A DNA stretch of 43,245 bases from Bacteroidaceae bacterium (GTDB lineage Bacteria; Bacteroidota; Bacteroidia; Bacteroidales; Bacteroidaceae), in the NCBI GenBank assembly GCA_024401225.1, contig JAKSLM010000021.1, positions 1 through 43,245 on the forward strand, in the 5' to 3' direction. The notes under the pieces were generated by a model, which saw nothing but the letters and a program-made list of their open reading frames with translations, was not told where the DNA came from and made no database searches. This document shows positions 10,184-42,886 of the stretch, one piece after another; the stretch's first letter is position 1, and every line of letters starts with the position of its first letter. Both the position numbers and the translations under genes were made by a program.

Positions 10184-11842
10184 ATGAAACTTAATAAGAC
10201 AAAATACACCACGAAGCAACTCCTTGCATGGCTGTGGAAGCATCATCGCGGATGCCGTCTGCAGGCCCTGCTCAATGCCGTGTTTGGACTTGCGCTCGTA
10301 GGTCTCTCCCTCCTTGCCGTCGATGCATCCCGCAAGGCGATGGACATCGCTGCCCACAACCTCGAGGGCAGCATCCTCACCATGGCATTCATACTGGCAG
10401 CCATCTACATAGCCGAACTGCTGGTCCACATCGCCTCCACATGGGTTGGTGCTGTGCTTGGCGTCCGTACTCAGAACAGCATGCAGCAATCCTTCTTCAG
10501 CCGCCTCCTCAAGGGCCGTTGGAGTGGGGTGGAGCGCTTCCATAGCGGCGATGTGCTCAACCGCCTCTTTGGCGATGTGGACGATATTGTTAAACTGATG
10601 ACAGAAGTGCTGCCATCCACCCTCACCGTCGTGGCGCAGTTCATCGCATCGTTCGTCTACCTCTATGCCATCGACTCCGAACTTGCCATCATCATCATCG
10701 CCACCTCGCCCGTATTCATCCTCTTCTCTCGCATCTATTTCCGTAAGATGCGCCGCATAGTGCGTAAAATCAAGGATAGCAACTCCGCCATCCAGTCCGT
10801 CATTCAGGAGAGTGTACAGCACAAGATGGTCGTAAAGGTCATGGGCCGCAGCGAGCACATGGTCTCAAGCCTCGAACAGCGCCAGGGACGCCTGCGCCGC
10901 CAGATCAAGGCACGCGCCCGCTTCTCCATCTTCTCACGCTCCATGATCAACATAGGCTTCGCAGGTGCCTACCTCGTGGCATTCGTATGGGGACTCCTTC
11001 AGCTCGACCGAGGCATCATCACCGTAGGTGTACTCACCGCCTTCCTCCAGCTCGTATACCGCATCCAGCGCCCATTGCTCGACATCTCGCGCCTCCTGCC
11101 AGTATTCGTCAACTCCATGACCTCGTGCGAGCGTCTCATGGAACTTGAAGAACTGCCTCTTGAGGACGAAGTCCACCCTACCATGCTTTCAGGCAGCGTA
11201 GGTGTCCGCTTCTCCGATGTCAGTTTCCAGTATGCCAAGGAAGGGCGCATGGTCATCGACCACTTCACCCACGACTTCCGCCCGGGCACCTTCACCGCCA
11301 TCCTTGGAGCCACCGGAGCCGGCAAGACCACCCTCATCCGCCTCATGCTCGCCCTCATGGAGCCAACCGCAGGTTCCGTCAGCCTCTACACCGGGGATGA
11401 CAGCACGCTTCGCCCAGCATCTCCATCCATGCGCACCAATTTCTCCTACATACCACAAGGCAACACCCTCTTCTCCGGCACCATCCGCGAGAACCTTCTC
11501 TTCGGCAACCCATCGGCCACCACAGCCCAGATGAAGGAAGCCCTTCATCTTGCCATGGCCGACTTCGTCCTTGAGCGTCCCGAGGGTCTCGAAACGCGAT
11601 GTGGCGAGGGAGGCGGCGGACTCTCCGAAGGTCAGGCGCAGCGCATAGCCATAGCCCGTGCCCTCCTTCATCCATGCAAGGTGCTCCTGCTCGATGAGGC
11701 CACCTCCGCTCTCGATACCGACACCGAGCGTCAGCTCCTCATCAATCTCAAGTCCCACTTCTCCGACTCCACCATCATCTTCGTCACTCACCGCCTCGCT
11801 GTGGTCGACTTCACCTCCGATGTGTTGAACATGGCAAAGTAA
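10184..11842 (+). CDS. ABC exporter, fused transmembrane and ATPase domains
   Basis: A half-transporter of 552 residues. The N-terminal half (about 20-310) holds the six-helix type-1 exporter membrane domain. The ATPase domain (about 330-552) has Walker A GATGAGKTT (about residue 374), the signature LSEGQ (about 479), Walker B VLLLDEATSALD (about 502) and the switch histidine in THR. It should work as a homodimer, or as a heterodimer with a partner that is not adjacent. The substrate is unknown; the family includes lipid, drug and peptide exporters, and no peptidase domain is present. It stands alone between repeat DNA and the riboswitch unit, with no obvious strong promoter or terminator. 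Confidence 0.92.
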   Translation: MKLNKTKYTTKQLLAWLWKHHRGCRLQALLNAVFGLALVGLSLLAVDASRKAMDIAAHNLEGSILTMAFILAAIYIAELLVHIASTWVGAVLGVRTQNSMQQSFFSRLLKGRWSGVERFHSGDVLNRLFGDVDDIVKLMTEVLPSTLTVVAQFIASFVYLYAIDSELAIIIIATSPVFILFSRIYFRKMRRIVRKIKDSNSAIQSVIQESVQHKMVVKVMGRSEHMVSSLEQRQGRLRRQIKARARFSIFSRSMINIGFAGAYLVAFVWGLLQLDRGIITVGVLTAFLQLVYRIQRPLLDISRLLPVFVNSMTSCERLMELEELPLEDEVHPTMLSGSVGVRFSDVSFQYAKEGRMVIDHFTHDFRPGTFTAILGATGAGKTTLIRLMLALMEPTAGSVSLYTGDDSTLRPASPSMRTNFSYIPQGNTLFSGTIRENLLFGNPSATTAQMKEALHLAMADFVLERPEGLETRCGEGGGGLSEGQAQRIAIARALLHPCKVLLLDEATSALDTDTERQLLINLKSHFSDSTIIFVTHRLAVVDFTSDVLNMAK

Positions 11843-11984: not shown

Positions 11985-11992
11985 TAACTTTG
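11985..11992 (+). promoter_or_regulatory. -7 promoter element of the riboswitch unit
   Basis: TAACTTTG matches the TAnnTTTG consensus and is followed by GC. It lies about 10 bases before the first structured part of the riboswitch, which fits a transcription start close to 12000. A TTTG at 11953-11956 is too far upstream (28-base spacer) to be an ideal -33 box. Confidence 0.65.
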
Positions 11993-12000
11993 CAGTGCAT

Positions 12001-12215
12001 TTGGTTTTCCTCACATCCTATGGGATGAGACGGAACTAAGATGGGAACACGGTGAGAATCCGTGACATTACCCGATGCTGTAAGTCCTTTTTCAACGGCT
12101 GAGCAGTAACAAAACCACTGGATTGCCCATAATGAGTTGCTAATGATTCATGAGGCAAAATGGGAAGGTTGCTTAGCCAAGGACAAGTCAGAAGACCTGC
12201 CATCTGCATGTGAAT
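12001..12215 (+). promoter_or_regulatory. Cobalamin riboswitch
   Basis: The aptamer core is recognisable. GGGAAC then GGTGAGAATCC is at 12043-12061, CCCGATGCTGTAAG at 12071-12084, and the B12 box AGTCAGAAGACCTGCC at 12186-12201. The order and spacing are those of adenosylcobalamin/cobalamin riboswitches. A small hairpin, CATCC-TATG-GGATG, precedes the core. After the aptamer, GTCCA...TGGAC (about 12228-12243) can pair in the expression platform. Binding of B12 is expected to lower expression of the downstream genes (known for the class). No run of Us follows a hairpin, so control of translation initiation is more likely than termination (inference). Confidence 0.93.
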
Positions 12216-12267
12216 GAGTCCACGGGATTATGGACGAATGAATTCTATACATATTATATAATAATTT

Positions 12268-13806
12268 ATGTTCTACAAAATTATTTCTACACTACATAAA
12301 GTGGTGGGATGCATTCTGTGCATACTATTCTTTATGTGGTTTGCTTCGGGTATTGTGATGATCTATCACTCTTTCCCCCGTGCTTCACAGGAGAAGTACA
12401 TGGAAAACCAATTAATTTTGAGTGCTGACCTTCCAGCGGTCGATTCGCTTCGTGCGTCATTTCCTGACACGGTAGCAATCAGTGGCTTACAAGTGGAAAT
12501 GTACCTTGATAAGCCTGTGTTCGTCATGGATGGCATGGAAGGCAAGGAAAGGTACGATGCTTCGGACTGTAAGCTGATAACGGAAACCATCGATATGACT
12601 GTACGTAGCTGGTGCAGTGCTCCAGTGGAGAGTATCGATACGCTTACGGATATAGACCAGTGGATACCTTTCGGTCGCAACAGGGACGATCTGCCTGTGT
12701 ACCGTTACAACTTTGCTGATTCGGACAAGCATCAGCTATACGTGTCGTCGCAGACCGGCAAGGTGCTTCAGTTCACAACTAGTGATGAACGCTTCTGGGC
12801 ATGGGTAGGCGCCATTCCGCATTGGGTTTACTTCACCATGCTTCGTGCTGAGCAGGATGTGTGGATCAACTTTGTGAAATGGGCAGCAGGCATCGGATGC
12901 ATCATGTGCTTGTTGGGCTTTGTGCTTGCCATCCGTATAGCCATAAAGAGAAAGGGCATCAAGAATAAGGTATTGCCTTACAAGAAGAAGTGGTTCAACT
13001 GGCACTATGTCACGGGCATGGTGTTCGGCCTCTGTGCCATCACGTTTGCCTTTAGTGGTATGATGTCCCTCATGGATATACCTGATTTTCTGAAGAAGGC
13101 ACCTGTGGAGAAAACCGTTGACGATCACCATTCGAAGGAGAAGGGCAAGGATAAGGATAAGGGCAGAGGCGGACGCCGTGGCGGACCAGGACGTTTCGGT
13201 TTCGGTGGTGGCCCAGTGGATTTTGAAGCTTATGCCCTCGACTATCGCAAGGCAGTAGCTGCTTATCCTAAGGCAAAGACCATAGCATGGTGCAACCGTA
13301 AAGGCCATCCATACTACCAGCTCAATGTGGAAGGCAAGATATTCAACATCGATGCTACCGACTCGCTCGTGGCTAAGCCATTCACCATCACACAGCAGAT
13401 GGTGGAGGATGAGATGGCAAAAACGTATGGCGACAGCTTGAAGTACACCATAGCCCGAATAGATGAGTTCGATGACGATTACTTCAGTTTGAAGGTTGAG
13501 GAAAACAGCCTGCCAGTATATCGTGTCATCGTGGAGGACTACATGAACACGCGCCACTACATCAACCCCGTTACCCTGCAGGAGCGACGTGTTGATGACG
13601 ATAGCCGTACGCGCCATCTGCTGTATCGTGCATTGCACACGCTTGAGTTCAAGTTCCTCACCGATCGCCCATGGCTTTGGAACATAGTCATGTACACGCT
13701 TCTGATAGGAGGTACTATGTTCTCGATCACAGGTGTTGTCCTGTCGTTCAAGTGGTTATGGCGCATAGTATCACGTCCCTTCAGACGTCGCAAAAACAAG
13801 AAATAA
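12268..13806 (+). CDS. PepSY-TM domain inner-membrane protein (FoxB/PiuB-like)
   Basis: A 512-residue membrane protein of the PepSY-associated TM family. There are four clear transmembrane segments: near residues 10-32 (following LHKVVG), about 205-227, about 248-270 and about 470-495. Histidines sit close to the membrane spans in LHK, PHWVYF, WHYVTG and LHTLEF, as expected of PepSY-TM proteins proposed to hold haem and reduce ferric siderophores in the periplasm. Large periplasmic regions lie at about 35-200 and 275-465. A Lys/Arg/Gly-rich stretch (about 290-318) is unusual. It is the first gene behind the cobalamin riboswitch, 38 bases before the TonB-dependent receptor. A reductase or metal-release role is inferred; the exact reaction is unknown. 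Confidence 0.85.
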   Translation: MFYKIISTLHKVVGCILCILFFMWFASGIVMIYHSFPRASQEKYMENQLILSADLPAVDSLRASFPDTVAISGLQVEMYLDKPVFVMDGMEGKERYDASDCKLITETIDMTVRSWCSAPVESIDTLTDIDQWIPFGRNRDDLPVYRYNFADSDKHQLYVSSQTGKVLQFTTSDERFWAWVGAIPHWVYFTMLRAEQDVWINFVKWAAGIGCIMCLLGFVLAIRIAIKRKGIKNKVLPYKKKWFNWHYVTGMVFGLCAITFAFSGMMSLMDIPDFLKKAPVEKTVDDHHSKEKGKDKDKGRGGRRGGPGRFGFGGGPVDFEAYALDYRKAVAAYPKAKTIAWCNRKGHPYYQLNVEGKIFNIDATDSLVAKPFTITQQMVEDEMAKTYGDSLKYTIARIDEFDDDYFSLKVEENSLPVYRVIVEDYMNTRHYINPVTLQERRVDDDSRTRHLLYRALHTLEFKFLTDRPWLWNIVMYTLLIGGTMFSITGVVLSFKWLWRIVSRPFRRRKNKK

Positions 13807-13843
13807 TACTTTTTTTTTCAACATAAAAACAAACATTTTTATT

Positions 13844-16216
13844 ATGAAGAAACTATTCGTATTCAGTGCTGCATGCCTCTGCATGCTTAGTGCAAGTGCT
13901 CAGCACAAGAAGAGCCATAAGAGTATGGCCGACTCCATCTACAGCATACAGAATGTAGATGTAGTAGATTACAAAAAGGAGGCATCGCAGCAGAAGCCTG
14001 TCAGCCTCATGGGAATGGATGTAAAGCTCAAGGACCTGCCACTCTCGGTGTCACGTCTGGACAGCAAGACTCTGGAGCGCAAGCATATCCTTCAGCTTGA
14101 GGATGCTGTGAAGTTCCTTCCTGGCGTAGTGCAGAGCAGCGACCAGCTTGGAGCCTTCAAGCGCTACAGTGTACGTGGTACGACCGATGCCGTTATCTCA
14201 TTCGACGGTGTACGTGATGAGCGCAGCCTTATCAACAACGTGCCATTCAGCGACCTCTCGAATGTAGAGTCGATCGAAGTGATCAAGGGTCCTTCATCAG
14301 TACTCAGTGGCCACTCCGTAATGGGTGGTGTGATCAACATCATACGCAAGAAGGCTACAGCCGAGCAGAATGCGCATGCCAGCATCAGCCTCGGTAGCTG
14401 GAACCAGAAGGAAGCAACCGTAGGATTCGGTGGCAGACTGGCTGGTCCGGTCAACTATCGTGCCAACGTGCACTATGCTAATGGTGATGGCTTCCGTGAG
14501 GTGAATGTCAACAACTTCACAGGTATGTTTGCCATCGGTTCGGAGATAACAAAGAACGGCTATCTCGATGCCAATTTCACATACAATGACGACCGCTACA
14601 CTACCGACATCGGCGGTGCTCCAACCATGCCAGGCGATGTGTACTCTGTACAGTCGGGAGCTCTGTTTGCTGCCAGCGGCACACGCAATCCTCTCTTTGA
14701 CTACAAGAAGTCGCTCAACGATAATGCCAACAACAAGATGAAGCGTCTGAACATGGACTTCACCCTCAACTATCGCCATAAGCTCACCGACTTCATGAAC
14801 CTGCGCGAGAGCTTTGCATGGGGACATAGCAATCTCGACTACGTGGCAGTCGAAAATACCAAGTATCGTACTAGCACCAATCCTATCTACAACTATTTCT
14901 ACACCAATGCAAAAGGTGTGAAGACATACGTCGATCTCGATAGCGTGCAGTCGGGTGCACCTCTCTGTTTCAACCCTGACAGCTGGAACCTGACCAACAC
15001 CCTCGAACTCAATGGTAAGTTCAACACCGGACTCGTCCGTCACAACTACAATCTTGGCTGGAACTACTCGTACTTCGACTACACACAGTACAATGGCTAC
15101 GGTGCTGACGACGTATGGGGACCAGGTATGGGCGAGATGGTTTCGGTAGCCGATCCTCACACCGTACGCGACTGGTGGGACAGCAAGGTGTCGGCAGCAT
15201 CGATCCGCAACTACATCACAAACGGCATCTATCTCCACGACATGCTTGAGATCAACAAGCACTGGAAGGCACTCATCGGACTCCGCTACGACAACTACCG
15301 CTACCAGACAGCCACAGCTACCATAAGCGATGGCCGCCAGCATTACGACGTAGCCAACCGTACTGACTGGAAGGAGAACCGCACAGGTGCTCTTACATAC
15401 AAGTTTGGTGTAGTATATCAGCCACTTACCGACCTCTCGATCTATGGATCGGCATCGTCTTACTTCAAGCCAAACACTACTACCTACAACAAGAACTACC
15501 TCTACTTCGACAGCAACTGGAAGGAGTTCAACCCAGATGCCGATGGAGGCCAGGTGTTCAAGCCAGAGCGTGGTAACCAGTTCGAACTCGGTGCACGCTA
15601 TGAAGTGGCAAAGTGGTTTGACATCAATGCCAGCGTATTCTACATCCGTAAGTTCAACGTGGTTCGCACCATCGGAAACCTCGGAGTGGAGGAGGATGGA
15701 GCAGTAGTTAACAAGAGCGTTCGCGCACAGATAGGCCGTCAGGAGACAAAGGGCTTCGATTTCGACCTCACCGTACGCCCACTCCCTACCATGCAGATCG
15801 TAGGCGGTTTTGCTTACTCCGACATGCGTACCATTGCCAGCAACTTCAGCGGCATGCCTGACAACATTGCTGAGATCATGACCTACAATGAGGATGGCAC
15901 CATCAACCTCCGTGCCACCAACTTCCCACGCACCACATTCTTCACATACGTTGACTACACCATCCCACGTGGTGCCCTCAAGGACCTTTCATTCCACCTC
16001 AGTGGCCAGTATACCGACAAGATGTACACAAGCATTGCCAACAACACTTACTACCCATCACGCTACCTCGTGGACCTTGGTGTGTTCTACACCATCAAGA
16101 AGCATATCACATTGGCTGTAAATGTCAACAACCTCTTCAACCACGAGTACTTTATCTCTACTACACGTATGGGTAAGCCACGCAACTTCATGTGTACTAT
16201 CGCATATAAAATGTAA
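13844..16216 (+). CDS. TonB-dependent receptor, FhuA-like siderophore-receptor type
   Basis: A 790-residue outer-membrane receptor. Signal peptide 1-19 is cleaved after ASA. The plug domain (about 60-180) has LPLSVSRLDSKTLE, FLPGV, YSVRGT and VESIEVIKGPSSVLSG-type motifs, followed by GGVINIIRKK. A 22-strand barrel then ends in NVNNLFNHEYF and a final aromatic/hydrophobic strand. There is no carboxypeptidase-regulatory N-terminal domain, so it is not a SusC-type glycan receptor. It is most like siderophore receptors of the FhuA class. Because it lies behind a cobalamin riboswitch with a PepSY-TM protein and a CbiK-type chelatase, its ligand may be a corrinoid, another tetrapyrrole, or a cobalt chelate. 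The ligand cannot be read from sequence. Confidence 0.92.
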   Translation: MKKLFVFSAACLCMLSASAQHKKSHKSMADSIYSIQNVDVVDYKKEASQQKPVSLMGMDVKLKDLPLSVSRLDSKTLERKHILQLEDAVKFLPGVVQSSDQLGAFKRYSVRGTTDAVISFDGVRDERSLINNVPFSDLSNVESIEVIKGPSSVLSGHSVMGGVINIIRKKATAEQNAHASISLGSWNQKEATVGFGGRLAGPVNYRANVHYANGDGFREVNVNNFTGMFAIGSEITKNGYLDANFTYNDDRYTTDIGGAPTMPGDVYSVQSGALFAASGTRNPLFDYKKSLNDNANNKMKRLNMDFTLNYRHKLTDFMNLRESFAWGHSNLDYVAVENTKYRTSTNPIYNYFYTNAKGVKTYVDLDSVQSGAPLCFNPDSWNLTNTLELNGKFNTGLVRHNYNLGWNYSYFDYTQYNGYGADDVWGPGMGEMVSVADPHTVRDWWDSKVSAASIRNYITNGIYLHDMLEINKHWKALIGLRYDNYRYQTATATISDGRQHYDVANRTDWKENRTGALTYKFGVVYQPLTDLSIYGSASSYFKPNTTTYNKNYLYFDSNWKEFNPDADGGQVFKPERGNQFELGARYEVAKWFDINASVFYIRKFNVVRTIGNLGVEEDGAVVNKSVRAQIGRQETKGFDFDLTVRPLPTMQIVGGFAYSDMRTIASNFSGMPDNIAEIMTYNEDGTINLRATNFPRTTFFTYVDYTIPRGALKDLSFHLSGQYTDKMYTSIANNTYYPSRYLVDLGVFYTIKKHITLAVNVNNLFNHEYFISTTRMGKPRNFMCTIAYKM

Positions 16217-16250
16217 GTTAAAAATTAAAAGTAAACAGGTAAAAAAAAGG

Positions 16251-17066
16251 ATGAAGCGAGTGATTACACTCATTGCCGTATTGGCAATCGCTATAAGTGT
16301 GCCGGCACGTTCCGGCATACTTGTAGCACAATTTGGCACAAGCAACGACGAAGGGCGCAAAGCATCGCTCGATGTGCTGTACACCGACCTCCAGTCGGCA
16401 TTCCCCGAGTATGACATCCGTGAGGCATACACATCGCCGACCATACGTCGCATACTGGCAAAGCGTGGCGTGAACAAGGACTCCGTAACCGATGCCCTGC
16501 TCCGTATGCATCTTGATGGGATAGACACAGTTATGGTGCAACCCACCTTCCTGCTCGATGGAGTGGAGATGCAGATGCTGCGCGACGAAGTGGCAGCCGT
16601 GACATCCTTGTTCAGCAACGTGCGTATAGGAGTGCCGCTGCTCTACACCATCGATGACTTCAAGGCGCTGGCAGCCATCCTGTCAGCCGAAAGCCCTGCT
16701 CGCCGTGAGGCCATAATGTATGTAGGGCATGGCAACGAATATGCCAGCACCTCGGCCTATGCCATGCTGGGCAGCATGTTGCAGCATGCAGGCTCAAGCC
16801 ATTCGTACATAGGCACCATCGAAGGGTGGCCCGATCTGCAGGCATCCGTGGCACAGCTCACGGGCAAAGGCTACCGCAAGGTAACCCTTGTTCCGCTCTT
16901 GCTTGCAGCCGGAGTGCATGCCCGCGAGGACATAGATGGAGAGTGGCGTCCAGCAGTCGAAAGCATAGGCTGTAAGGTGGAAGTGCGTCTTCAGGGACTA
17001 GGCGAACGGCAAGCCATCAGACAGATGGTGATCGACCATTTGCGACAGCTGCAGAAATCCATCTGA
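16251..17066 (+). CDS. cbiK: CbiK-type sirohydrochlorin/metal chelatase with a signal peptide
   Basis: A 271-residue protein of the class II anaerobic cobalt chelatase family. The start is ATG at 16251 (35 bases after the receptor stop), giving a signal peptide MKRVITLIAVLAIAISVPA; an upstream in-frame extension overlapping the receptor gene was rejected. Family marks are VAQFGTSN near the mature N-terminus, the QPTFLLDGVE segment, and two metal-site histidines: His160 in GHGNE and His223 in LLLAAGVHAREDIDG. CbiK inserts Co2+ into sirohydrochlorin in anaerobic B12 synthesis, but that enzyme is cytosolic. An exported form resembles the periplasmic CbiK-P described in Desulfovibrio. The riboswitch and neighbours point to cobalt or tetrapyrrole handling; the native substrate is uncertain. 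Confidence 0.87.
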   Translation: MKRVITLIAVLAIAISVPARSGILVAQFGTSNDEGRKASLDVLYTDLQSAFPEYDIREAYTSPTIRRILAKRGVNKDSVTDALLRMHLDGIDTVMVQPTFLLDGVEMQMLRDEVAAVTSLFSNVRIGVPLLYTIDDFKALAAILSAESPARREAIMYVGHGNEYASTSAYAMLGSMLQHAGSSHSYIGTIEGWPDLQASVAQLTGKGYRKVTLVPLLLAAGVHAREDIDGEWRPAVESIGCKVEVRLQGLGERQAIRQMVIDHLRQLQKSI

Positions 17067-17103
17067 TCCACAGTACCATTACCTATGATTCTATCAATAA
17101 AAG

Positions 17104-17141
17104 AAACAACAGGGCTCACTCCATTGAGTCCTGTTGTTTTT
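17104..17141 (+). terminator. Rho-independent terminator of the riboswitch unit
   Basis: AAACAACAGG (17104-17113) pairs with CCTGTTGTTT (17130-17139). Inside it CTCA pairs with TGAG, leaving a short loop, and the hairpin is followed by Ts. It ends the PepSY-receptor-chelatase unit 37 bases after the cbiK stop and may also act for the convergent gene. Confidence 0.9.
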
Positions 17142-17252: not shown

Positions 17253-18002
17253 TTATCGCTTCACGCTTTCAGTGGCGACATGGAACTGGAAGTAGGTGTC
17301 AGGGAAAGGCTCGTTATTGAGTGTGAAATGCCACCATTCCGTGTCGAGAGGCTTGAAGCCGTGACGCATCATAGCCTCGCGCAGTATCATACGGTTATGG
17401 TACTGCTCCTCGTTGATTGGCTGGTAGGCACCAATCTCCTGACCCGGTTGCTTGTCAGGGTGCGAAGCCACGCCGAAGTAGTCGAAGGTGCATCCCATGT
17501 CAACCTCCTTCTCCAGCTTCATGTCGAAGAGAGTGAGGTCGACCGTCGAACCACGAGTATGACCACTGCGCTCGTCCACATATCCACCAGGGATGATCTC
17601 CGGTTTCTCCAGTTCAGGATAGAAGTACTCCTTCATGCGAGTGTCCGAGAGGTCTTTTGCCCATTTCATGAAGTAATCCACGGCACATTGAGGACGGTAA
17701 GCATCAAATATCTTCAGGCGGTAGCCCTGCTTCCTCACGTCATCACTCACGGCACGCAACGAGTCAGCCGCCTCACGAGTCAGCAAAGCTACAGGTTCAT
17801 CATATCCCGGGATGCGATCGCCGATGAAGTTGTATGTACTGAAGTAACGGATCTCCAGTATTGCATCAGGCACCACATCGGTGACCAGTGCAAACTGCGA
17901 GCTGTCATACTCAGGTTCAATGCCATGTTCTTCCTTCCTACATGCTGTCATAGCTACCACTGCCAGCAGTAGCACAACCCAATTAACGTAAGTTTTCTGC
18001 AT
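17253..18002 (-). CDS. VanX-like D-Ala-D-Ala dipeptidase family lipoprotein (M15D)
   Basis: A 249-residue zinc metallopeptidase of the M15D family, which cleaves D-alanyl-D-alanine. The zinc and catalytic motifs are present: SGHTRGSTVDLTL (the SxHxxGxAxD signature, with Thr where Ala is usual before V-D) and the C-terminal EWWHF, which supplies the catalytic Glu and a zinc His. FDAYRPQ provides the conserved Arg. The N-terminus is a lipoprotein signal with a Cys at residue 21 (AMTAC), so it is probably anchored in the periplasm. There it would act on peptidoglycan-derived dipeptide rather than give vancomycin resistance; no van regulatory genes are nearby. It is on the - strand, convergent with cbiK. 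Confidence 0.92.
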   Translation of the reverse strand: MQKTYVNWVVLLLAVVAMTACRKEEHGIEPEYDSSQFALVTDVVPDAILEIRYFSTYNFIGDRIPGYDEPVALLTREAADSLRAVSDDVRKQGYRLKIFDAYRPQCAVDYFMKWAKDLSDTRMKEYFYPELEKPEIIPGGYVDERSGHTRGSTVDLTLFDMKLEKEVDMGCTFDYFGVASHPDKQPGQEIGAYQPINEEQYHNRMILREAMMRHGFKPLDTEWWHFTLNNEPFPDTYFQFHVATESVKR

Positions 18003-40378: not shown

Positions 40379-42886
40379 ATGAAACATGCAAAAGCATTAG
40401 TTCTGTTAGCAGCATCGCTGCTGATGGGTACAGCGGCAGTCGAGGCTCAAACAGTCAGTCTTGATGATGCCCAGTCGAAGGCTTTGTCCTTTATGAAAAA
40501 GCAGAATCAGGCAAAGGCCATCCAGGGTGGTGTTCCTGAGAAGTTATCATTGGCCTATACTTCGCAGGCAGGTGATGAAACTTATTACTATGTGTTCAAC
40601 AGCAACAAGGGTGGTTATGTCATCATCGGTGGTGATGAAGTAGCACACGAAGTGCTTGCTTATTCCGAAAATGGCAGTTTCGACTATAGTCGTATTCCAG
40701 ACAACATGAAGTGGTTCCTTTCTTGCTATGATAAGCAGATTTCGTCTGCTATCACACTGGTAAAAGAACACAAATTATCTTCTGAGGAAATAGCGCAGTC
40801 AAAATGCAGGGCTTCCCGCAAGGCTCCAAAGGCTAATATCAGCTACTTGTTGCAAACAAAGTGGGATCAGGTGACACCTTTCAACTGTATGCATCCTTTT
40901 AATATAGAATATAATCTTCTCAACGTTTATTATGATACGGCAATGGCAACCGGCTGTGTAGCAACTGCCGGCGCTCAGATTATGAAGTACTATGAATGGC
41001 CAATCACTGGTGTAGGAAGTCATACTGACCCCAATAAAATCAATGGTCAATCTTTCTCTGCCAACTTCGGAGAAACGACATATCAGTGGAGTAAGATGAA
41101 GAATGAGTACGATTATTGTACATATACTGGTGACGAAGCAGACATCGCTGTCGGTACATTGATGTATCATATTGGTGTGGCTGTCGATATGAGGTTCGGA
41201 CCATTCGCCTCAAAAGGTTCAGAAGCAAACGCAAAAAAATTCATTGAGGCGTTGGTCAGCTACTTCAAGTATAGCAAAGGAATTACATATCGGGAGCGTG
41301 CTTTCTACACTGATGAACAGTGGGAAGACATGGTGTATGACGAGCTTGCAGCAGGTCGTCCTGTGTTCTATGGTGGTGTGCAGGAAAACGGCAGCGGACA
41401 TGCCTTCGTATGCGATGGCTTTGAGAATGGGCTCTACCATATTAATTGGGGATGGAGCGGTGGAAGTAATGACTACTTTCTTCTCACTCCTACAGAAACC
41501 TCAGGCTCAGCCCTCTGTCCTGAAGGGTCGGGATCAGGTGGTGGTAAGGCAGGTGAAGGCTATTATATGAACCAGCATATCGGCATCGGCATAACTCCTG
41601 ATTATGACGGAACTAGCATACCTGTTAAGAGTGCCCATACAAGTGGATATACATTGTCGACAACTATTGTTGAACCAGGTGAGGATTATGAGGTGGTATC
41701 TGGATATGTGCTTGTCAACGAATCTGTAGAGACACTTACATATTCAGTGAAGGTCAAGTATGTTAATGCGACAGATCCTTCAGATGTTGTTATTAGTACA
41801 TCTACCACAATGTTTAAGGATGTACCTGGAGGATACGGAGCTTATGGCAATTTCAAAGTGCCGAATTCTCTGACTATAGGAGAAACTTACAAGGTCATTT
41901 TCATGTATGAAGATAATAATGGTGATTATCAAGATGTGAAAATGCCAACTTCGTTAATAGTACCTACCATAACGATTGCAGAGCCTACAGGCTTTAAGCT
42001 GTCAAAGGATGTTACTATCACGGATAATGGATATATTACAGAAGATCATGGAAGTATTAGTTTCTCCCTCAAAAATTATAGTTCTGCCCCTTGTACAAAG
42101 AATATTGTAGTCTATTTGTTCCCTTACGGTAATGGCGATAGCCTAGGTGGTTGGGACAAAGCTGCTGGTCAGGACTATGCTGCTGGTGAAGAAAAGGACT
42201 TTGTGTTGACCTATGCTGACGTGTTTATGTTCGATGGTGAAAAGATGACACCTGGAGTTGATTATGGTATTGCATTGTACGATGCCGATGCAGGAGTATA
42301 TCTCACCTCCTTGACCCCTCTCTACTTCCGCGCAGACAACAAAATCGACTACACGCTCACATCTGCTGAGTGGGGAACTCTTTGTCTCCCATATTCAGCT
42401 GATGTCCCAGACGGATTGAAAGCATACAAGGTTACTGGAACTTCGGGAACTGCGCTTGTGAAGGAAGAGGTAACAAAACTTGAAATGAACAAGCCTTACC
42501 TCGTGAGTGGTACTCCTGCTACTTATACCTTCCACGGTCCAGCTACTCCTGAGGCATCAAACCTCAAGAATGGAATCCTTGTTGGTAGCACTGTGCCTGA
42601 GATATTGTACGCACCAGCCAACTCGTATGTACTCCAGAATAAGGCAGAAGGACTTGCATTCTACAAGGTGAATAGTTCACAGGCTGTACACCAGTATGGA
42701 GCATACCTCCAGGATTCTGGTTTGTCAACATCTACATTCTTCAGGTTTGATGATGAAGCAACTGATATTGACTTCGTACAGCAGAAAGAGACTACTTCAC
42801 CTGCTTACAACCTCAACGGTATGCGTGTCGACAGCAATACTCGTGGATTTGTAATCGTGAATGGAAAACTTAAGTATAACAAATAA
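40379..42886 (+). CDS. C10 family cysteine peptidase (streptopain-like), secreted
   Basis: An 835-residue exported protease. Signal peptide 1-23 is cleaved after VEA. A propeptide of the C10 type (about 24-145) contains YYVFNSNKGGYVIIGGDE. The catalytic domain has Cys193 in MATGCVATAGAQIMKYY and His341 in SGHAFVCDG, followed by YHINWGWSGG. These positions are nearly the same as in streptococcal SpeB (Cys192, His340). The rest (about 415-835) consists of beta-sandwich domains; the end reads YNLNGMRV and then FVIVNGKLKYNK, a C-terminal pattern common in secreted Prevotella/Bacteroides proteins. It is followed directly by a small acidic protein gene. Probably extracellular or surface proteolysis; zymogen activation is expected. 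Confidence 0.93.
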   Translation: MKHAKALVLLAASLLMGTAAVEAQTVSLDDAQSKALSFMKKQNQAKAIQGGVPEKLSLAYTSQAGDETYYYVFNSNKGGYVIIGGDEVAHEVLAYSENGSFDYSRIPDNMKWFLSCYDKQISSAITLVKEHKLSSEEIAQSKCRASRKAPKANISYLLQTKWDQVTPFNCMHPFNIEYNLLNVYYDTAMATGCVATAGAQIMKYYEWPITGVGSHTDPNKINGQSFSANFGETTYQWSKMKNEYDYCTYTGDEADIAVGTLMYHIGVAVDMRFGPFASKGSEANAKKFIEALVSYFKYSKGITYRERAFYTDEQWEDMVYDELAAGRPVFYGGVQENGSGHAFVCDGFENGLYHINWGWSGGSNDYFLLTPTETSGSALCPEGSGSGGGKAGEGYYMNQHIGIGITPDYDGTSIPVKSAHTSGYTLSTTIVEPGEDYEVVSGYVLVNESVETLTYSVKVKYVNATDPSDVVISTSTTMFKDVPGGYGAYGNFKVPNSLTIGETYKVIFMYEDNNGDYQDVKMPTSLIVPTITIAEPTGFKLSKDVTITDNGYITEDHGSISFSLKNYSSAPCTKNIVVYLFPYGNGDSLGGWDKAAGQDYAAGEEKDFVLTYADVFMFDGEKMTPGVDYGIALYDADAGVYLTSLTPLYFRADNKIDYTLTSAEWGTLCLPYSADVPDGLKAYKVTGTSGTALVKEEVTKLEMNKPYLVSGTPATYTFHGPATPEASNLKNGILVGSTVPEILYAPANSYVLQNKAEGLAFYKVNSSQAVHQYGAYLQDSGLSTSTFFRFDDEATDIDFVQQKETTSPAYNLNGMRVDSNTRGFVIVNGKLKYNK

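Follow-up and report, generated by a model that had tools for sequence, protein, structure and literature searches.

A cobalamin riboswitch, a siderophore-type receptor and an exported CbiK-type chelatase in a candidate tetrapyrrole salvage unit of a Bacteroidaceae bacterium

Introduction

Why would a bacterium export a CbiK-type chelatase and place it under the control of cobalamin (vitamin B12), together with an outer-membrane receptor and a PepSY_TM inner-membrane protein? This question is raised by a unit in contig JAKSLM010000021.1 of a Bacteroidaceae bacterium (assembly GCA_024401225.1). The whole stretch of DNA that was analyzed, 43,245 bp long, is referred to here as the window; it is contig C20 of a 3.0-Mb genome that is 84% complete. 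Our analysis suggests an answer that we regard as, on balance, the probable one: cobalamin represses the unit, and its products salvage a tetrapyrrole made elsewhere, importing it to feed the corrin pathway.

The puzzle of corrin genes in this part of the bacterial tree is not new, and the corrin-pathway "enigma" of Porphyromonas gingivalis is said to date from work by Roper in 2000. In the early-cobalt route to the corrin ring, CbiK or CbiX puts cobalt into sirohydrochlorin, and CbiL acts next (PMC8123684, PMC7689651). On the strength of their corrin genes, gut Bacteroidales have been counted among the B12 producers though some need B12, and a missing ring precursor has been offered as the reason; for Bacteroidales in which a full set of corrin genes coexists with a need for B12, the same source suggests precorrin-2 auxotrophy (PMC6593275). 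P. gingivalis is described as being without the steps to precorrin-2 (PMC6461909). The precursor salvagers of Shelton et al. likewise have corrin genes and no early precursor genes; they are mostly Firmicutes, and we found no uptake or periplasmic chelation route for them in that source (PMC6461909).

Results

A unit of three genes behind a cobalamin riboswitch

Genes for a PepSY_TM protein, a TonB-dependent receptor and a CbiK-type chelatase follow a cobalamin aptamer, all in one direction (Table 1). A unit of this composition, with a signal peptide on its chelatase, had been described in an earlier sequence-only reading of the window, and its parts are borne out by the RF00174 match, by the Pfam domains and by the N-terminus of CbiK. 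The aptamer covers the full model (positions 1–189), its score compares with a gathering cut-off of 31.5 bits, and it is the sole Rfam gathering match across the window. The proposed bounds, a promoter and a terminator, hold up as well: the aptamer opens with the pattern TAnnTTTG, the Bacteroidales −7 promoter motif, and the unit closes with a hairpin. Of the 46 riboswitches compared in fetched loci, 42 have the same pattern close to their start; no good −33 element was seen at the usual spacing in the window. The hairpin was found by folding, and a generic terminator scan did not list it. We read CbiK from the ATG at 16251, the mechanical list of open reading frames (ORFs) opening the same frame at 16122. 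The btu genes of B12 uptake had been called absent, which is true of the unit but not of the genome: a cluster of corrin genes on contig C9 includes BtuB-like, BtuC-like and BtuF-like genes.

Table 1. Features of the unit in the window, and loci of relatives in which CbiK lies in one run with corrin genes
Feature	Position or loci	Strand	Evidence or description
Cobalamin riboswitch aptamer RF00174	11985..12218	+	cmscan 76.2 bits, E 3.6e-17
−7-like promoter motif TAACTTTG	11985-11992	+	first bases of aptamer, pattern TAnnTTTG
PepSY_TM inner-membrane protein, 512 aa	12268..13806	+	PF03929 E 6e-16
TonB-dependent outer-membrane receptor, siderophore-type, 790 aa	13844..16216	+	PF00593, PF07715
Exported CbiK-type class II chelatase, 271 aa	16251..17066	+	PF06180 E 6e-59
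Intrinsic terminator hairpin	17102..17141	+	17 pairs, −24.6 kcal/mol, T-rich 3ʹ side
CbiK-corrin runs	L045, L047, L049-L051, L056-L059, L065-L070, L073, L076, L078-L080

The CbiK of the window begins with MKRVITLIAVLAIAISVPARS, a type I signal peptide of approximately residues 1–19 as judged by inspection and a simple scoring script. Its PF06180 domain scores over the cut-off, its predicted fold is bilobal, and His160 and His223 align with the catalytic histidine pair 145/207. The best match in the PDB is Salmonella CbiK, a sirohydrochlorin cobaltochelatase (1qgo, 115 bits), followed by the CbiK of Desulfovibrio vulgaris (2xvx, 97 bits) and P. gingivalis FetB (89 bits). A second CbiK is encoded in the same genome (locus L008, 2464–3582); it is a lipoprotein and is nearest to FetB. 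The CbiK of the window shares 69% identity with the relative nearest to it, in locus L009, whereas the receptors of the two loci share 27%, which indicates that parts have been exchanged.

The receptor contains a Plug domain (E = 8e-17) and a TonB barrel (E = 1e-40). It falls under the cut-offs of both TIGR01783, for TonB siderophore receptors (202.2 bits, cut-off 223.5), and TIGR01779, for the vitamin B12 receptor BtuB (61.8 bits, cut-off 599.7). Its best PDB match is 5fp1, and the match to FhuA is much weaker; hence the earlier description "FhuA-like" is a loose label. The PepSY_TM protein scores 59.5 bits against PF03929, over the cut-off of 28.8. Among 11 aligned PepSY proteins of loci of this kind, His10, His185, His246 and His457 are present in all and His34 in ten. 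This conservation suggests that the four invariant histidines may be haem ligands; the protein is probably a haem-b reductase. A sequence search with the PepSY profile found no convincing PDB chain. Residues ~286–318 of the protein form a charged, glycine-rich, low-complexity loop that is largely missing in the four relatives of another alignment.

Corrin genes without ring-precursor genes, and an exported CbiK

We scored gene presence by profile search in 121 genomes from the family to which the window belongs. CbiK (PF06180) and CbiC are each present in 46 of these genomes, and 43 have both (Fisher p = 2e-25, kinship not corrected). HemB was matched in four (G023, G028, G047 and G049), none of which has CbiC or CbiK; HemC was matched in five, CobA over its cut-off in four, and SirC in four. 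HemB, HemC, CobA and SirC all went undetected in 45 of the 46 genomes with CbiC (HemA, HemL and HemD were not among the genes searched, either here or in the window's own genome). These bacteria therefore have corrin genes without a known route to the starting tetrapyrrole. In a control genome, that of Bacteroides ihuae, the same searches matched CbiK and CbiC and did not match HemB or HemC.

The window's own genome is a case of this tetrapyrrole-precursor salvager pattern, corrin genes without detected early precursor genes. It encodes CbiH-C, E-T, G-F, J-D, P and B; in the 84% of the genome that is covered, HemB, HemC and SirC gave no match and CobA stayed under its cut-off. Two other genomes encode precursor-type proteins as follows. 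An 8-kb contig of G037 (C49, L105:4649–7160) encodes a HemC-CobA-HemD fusion of 680 aa and a SirC-like protein of 160 aa, with no HemB match. In G032 (C2, L111:5855–11833), a CobA-like methyltransferase reaches 160 of the 185 bits of its cut-off, in a run that by eye includes a TonB receptor, a periplasmic binding protein, a BtuC-like permease and an ATPase; this run possibly serves ring import ahead of the precorrin-2 step.

Every one of the 65 CbiK genes in the 46 family genomes encodes a signal peptide or a lipobox, and many have a lipobox (62 calls were made by the rule of a home-made script and three by eye, with doubtful starts checked). For comparison, a phylum sample of 277 genomes contains 16 further corrin makers outside the family. 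Twelve of them, all from one family (f17), have CbiK, and four have a CbiX-like protein; after start-codon checks, none of these proteins has a signal peptide. HemB was matched in 15 of these 16 genomes. The chelatase is exported and HemB unmatched in 43 genomes, exported with HemB in none, cytosolic without HemB in one, and cytosolic with HemB in 15 (Fisher p = 4e-13, in genomes that are related). In a quick tree of 63 CbiK rows with long branches, from which five partial CbiX-like rows had been dropped, the exported lipoprotein and non-lipoprotein forms fall on opposite sides of the cytosolic rows, with a modest support of 83. This placement suggests that export of CbiK may have arisen twice. 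An exported lipoprotein of CbiX-like type, with a partial PF06180 match under the cut-off, is found in L100; its genome (G249) has HemB and no CbiC.

Riboswitch and operon linkage among relatives

According to the alignment, both catalytic histidines are kept in 58 of the 65 family CbiK genes. We scanned 55 of these 58 with cmscan, leaving out the second copies in G001, G037 and G073, and found a cobalamin riboswitch upstream on the same strand in 50. Thus, the relatives do not lack the riboswitch; its absence from them was part of what the sequence-only reading had named as speaking against that reading. For the three genes left out of the scan, the conserved aptamer 3ʹ motif lies upstream of two; this is no proof. 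When one mismatch is allowed, about one chance occurrence of the motif is expected per window. The remaining seven genes encode exported CbiK-like proteins in which neither histidine is kept, and no riboswitch accompanies any of them (intact versus histidine-less, Fisher p = 2e-6). These seven form one clade, and the contrast therefore amounts to approximately one event. The histidine-less copies lie at L063:9173–10111 and L064:1271–2239 and in L062, L081, L082, L083 and L084; the copy in L063 sits between an ATP-binding cassette (ABC) ATPase and an ABC-F-like ATPase. The histidine-less protein is possibly a binding protein derived from the chelatase.

CbiK lies in one run with corrin genes at 20 of the 43 loci examined (Table 1). 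The set of receptor, PepSY_TM protein and CbiK is found in 11 loci. Its order varies among them, and by best match the receptors fall into three types; in five of the 11 (L045, L049, L051, L057 and L059) the run extends from this set into cbiH-C. In L046, one riboswitch precedes the receptor and PepSY genes and a second precedes CbiK. A lipoprotein is placed inside the set at three of the 11 loci. In L057 (12035–16100) and L059, a BACON-domain lipoprotein (547 aa) separates a CarboxypepD_reg-type TonB receptor from the PepSY_TM-CbiK pair of a corrin operon; it may bind the imported compound at the cell surface.

Surroundings of the unit

The ABC protein encoded upstream of the unit (10184–11842) is of the exporter type. 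Convergent to the unit is a gene for an M15-family D-Ala-D-Ala dipeptidase (17253–18002), which scores 180.8 of 320 bits against the NCBIfam VanX model, below its cut-off, and a C10-family peptidase with a Spi inhibitor domain is encoded at 40379–42886. We considered a horizontal origin of the unit from its base composition. Guanine-plus-cytosine content, overall (GC) and at third codon positions (GC3), places the three genes within the range of the other measured genes of the window, and is uninformative.

Discussion

What is the function of an exported CbiK in bacteria of this kind? The later corrin steps are present, a known route to the ring is missing, all CbiK proteins found in the family are exported, and most of their genes follow a cobalamin riboswitch and have a gene for an outer-membrane importer beside them. 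The simplest account of these observations is import of the ring and insertion of cobalt in the periplasm. We propose that low cobalamin would permit expression of the three genes through the riboswitch, and that the TonB-dependent receptor would bring a macrocycle across the outer membrane; sirohydrochlorin (factor II), free or as a metal complex, is the most likely one. The exported CbiK would then insert cobalt in the periplasm, ahead of corrin synthesis. The product, cobalt-sirohydrochlorin, on which CbiL acts, would pass through the inner membrane, perhaps via the BtuFCD-type transporter of the corrin clusters. The PepSY_TM protein would probably pass electrons across the membrane, keeping cobalt as Co(II) or reducing the imported compound. 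The gene content, the riboswitch, the signals for export, the catalytic histidine pair, the predicted fold, the association of CbiK with corrin genes and the absence of precursor genes in profile searches are observed, whereas the substrate, the direction and place of metal insertion, the role of the PepSY_TM protein, the inner-membrane route and the activity of CbiK are inferred.

B12-repressed precursor import with metal handling in the periplasm had been suggested from the window alone, and it fits the comparative evidence, with 45 of 46 CbiC genomes lacking detected precursor genes and 65 of 65 CbiK genes encoding exported proteins. That suggestion had left open whether metal is added or removed; we favor the insertion of cobalt. 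For the family as a whole, the first metal step of B12 synthesis may have moved to the periplasm, such that a metallated ring rather than free cobalt enters the cell. We put this broader idea forward tentatively, with slightly more doubt than belief.

Does the unit belong to a known system? The sequence-only reading could not name the arrangement, which is half right, as close kin exist in the IhtA/IhtB pair of P. gingivalis and in D. vulgaris CbiK. The latter is periplasmic, like the CbiK of the window; D. vulgaris reportedly has a second, cytosolic CbiK (an observation attributed to Lobo, 2008), and to our knowledge no receptor/PepSY unit is known in that organism. Salmonella CbiK, whose catalytic His145 and His207 are both kept in the window's protein, has no signal peptide and is cytoplasmic, in a host that has the precursor pathway. 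FoxA/FoxB-type systems pair a TonB receptor with a PepSY_TM reductase in siderophore uptake; they share the receptor family and the PepSY_TM domain with the unit described here, which adds a cobalamin riboswitch and a chelatase. IhtA/IhtB, a TonB receptor and a CbiK-like lipoprotein, has been published as a haem system (PMC10913741). IhtB (FetB) has been studied for haem and iron, together with IhtC-E (binding protein, permease and ATPase). In contrast, the window's CbiK is not a lipoprotein, and no genes for a binding-protein/permease/ATPase importer lie beside the unit. The unit further differs from IhtAB in its PepSY_TM protein, in its cobalamin riboswitch and in the closer similarity of its CbiK to that of Salmonella. 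The second CbiK of the genome is a closer counterpart of IhtB/FetB than is the CbiK of the window.

The main rival to precursor salvage is haem or porphyrin metal exchange, as proposed for IhtB/FetB: the receptor would import haem-like compounds, the exported CbiK would remove or exchange their metal, and control by B12 would be secondary. FetB, which is related to CbiK, has been described as a porphyrin metal-exchange enzyme (PMC13402209), a point that weighs against the salvage of a precursor. However, use of haem does not sit easily with a riboswitch upstream of 50 of 55 scanned intact genes or with linkage to corrin genes. Moreover, IhtB is reportedly not regulated by PgFur (PMC10913741), and disruption of cbiK in Bacteroides fragilis left the use of haem iron unaffected, according to unpublished data stated in PMC6460266. 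The window's CbiK resembles the Salmonella protein more closely than it does FetB, and it is the second CbiK of the genome that is nearer to FetB. Together, the riboswitch, the corrin linkage and these literature statements on IhtB and B. fragilis rule out a haem-iron system as the leading explanation, and we consider the use of haem or metalloporphyrins unlikely. We also looked for a metal-removal partner of the CobN/HmuS type among the six ORFs longer than 1050 aa in the loci. The three that were scanned encode a hybrid histidine kinase, a beta-galactosidase and an AsmA/DUF748 protein; the ORF in L061 is the same gene as that in L012, those in L060 and L072 lay outside the scan, and CobN was not searched for in the genomes.

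An alternative function for the unit is cobalt uptake, in which the receptor would import a cobalt chelate, the PepSY_TM protein would reduce Co(III) to free Co(II), and CbiK would act as a periplasmic trap or chaperone for cobalt. Corrin makers need cobalt, and a siderophore-type receptor with a PepSY_TM protein resembles reductive siderophore uptake. Against this, both catalytic histidines are kept, the receptor type differs between loci, and the missing ring precursor stays unexplained. We judge this alternative to be distinctly improbable. Least probable of all is an accessory role in corrinoid uptake, with CbiK binding or remodeling cobinamide-like compounds, finished or incomplete corrinoids, in the periplasm: BtuB-like receptors and BtuF/BtuC genes are often in the same runs, but the riboswitch is found in 120 of the 121 family genomes and CbiK in only 46, such that CbiK tracks CbiC and not B12 regulation in general.

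Several observations weigh against precursor salvage with cobalt insertion in the periplasm. The CbiK of the window scores 154.5 of 400 bits against NF047852, the equivalog model for sirohydrochlorin cobaltochelatase. In its clade (which includes L009–L014, L026 and L028), the stretch with the second catalytic histidine reads GVHxxE, as against GDHxxN in most other CbiK proteins of the same alignment. The sample includes six other genomes of the same genus, and this clade was found in none of them: five have a lipoprotein CbiK and a histidine-less copy, and one (G042) is without any CbiK. CbiL was not identified in the 84%-complete genome among the three PF00590 matches listed out of four. Intact exported CbiK proteins in G003, G029, G052 and G071 have no riboswitch in the scanned stretch; the fifth such case, G083, is on a contig that starts inside the upstream gene. 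CbiC occurs without CbiK in three of 46 genomes (G058, G076 and G094), and CbiK without CbiC in three of 46 (G003, G030 and G083), the G083 contig stopping within cbiH. G037 is the sole CbiC genome among those with HemC, CobA or SirC. Outside the family, G230 has a cytosolic CbiK and yet no HemB match, and few independent lineages stand behind the counts that link export to HemB.

Auxotrophy for a precursor has already been published. Neither periplasmic cobalt insertion in the corrin synthesis of Bacteroidales nor the combination of exported CbiK, riboswitch, receptor/PepSY pair and missing precursor genes as one salvage route was found in the open-access literature, subscription papers not being covered. 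The finding would be of high interest if the periplasmic cobalt step were proved. If our proposal is correct, it would explain the use of the corrin pathway by bacteria that are unable to make precorrin-2, and the role of the IhtB/FetB-type protein of Porphyromonas may need rereading. Predictions of B12 production in gut communities would need correcting, since these bacteria would depend on their neighbors for a sirohydrochlorin-type ring, making B12 synthesis a trait of the community.

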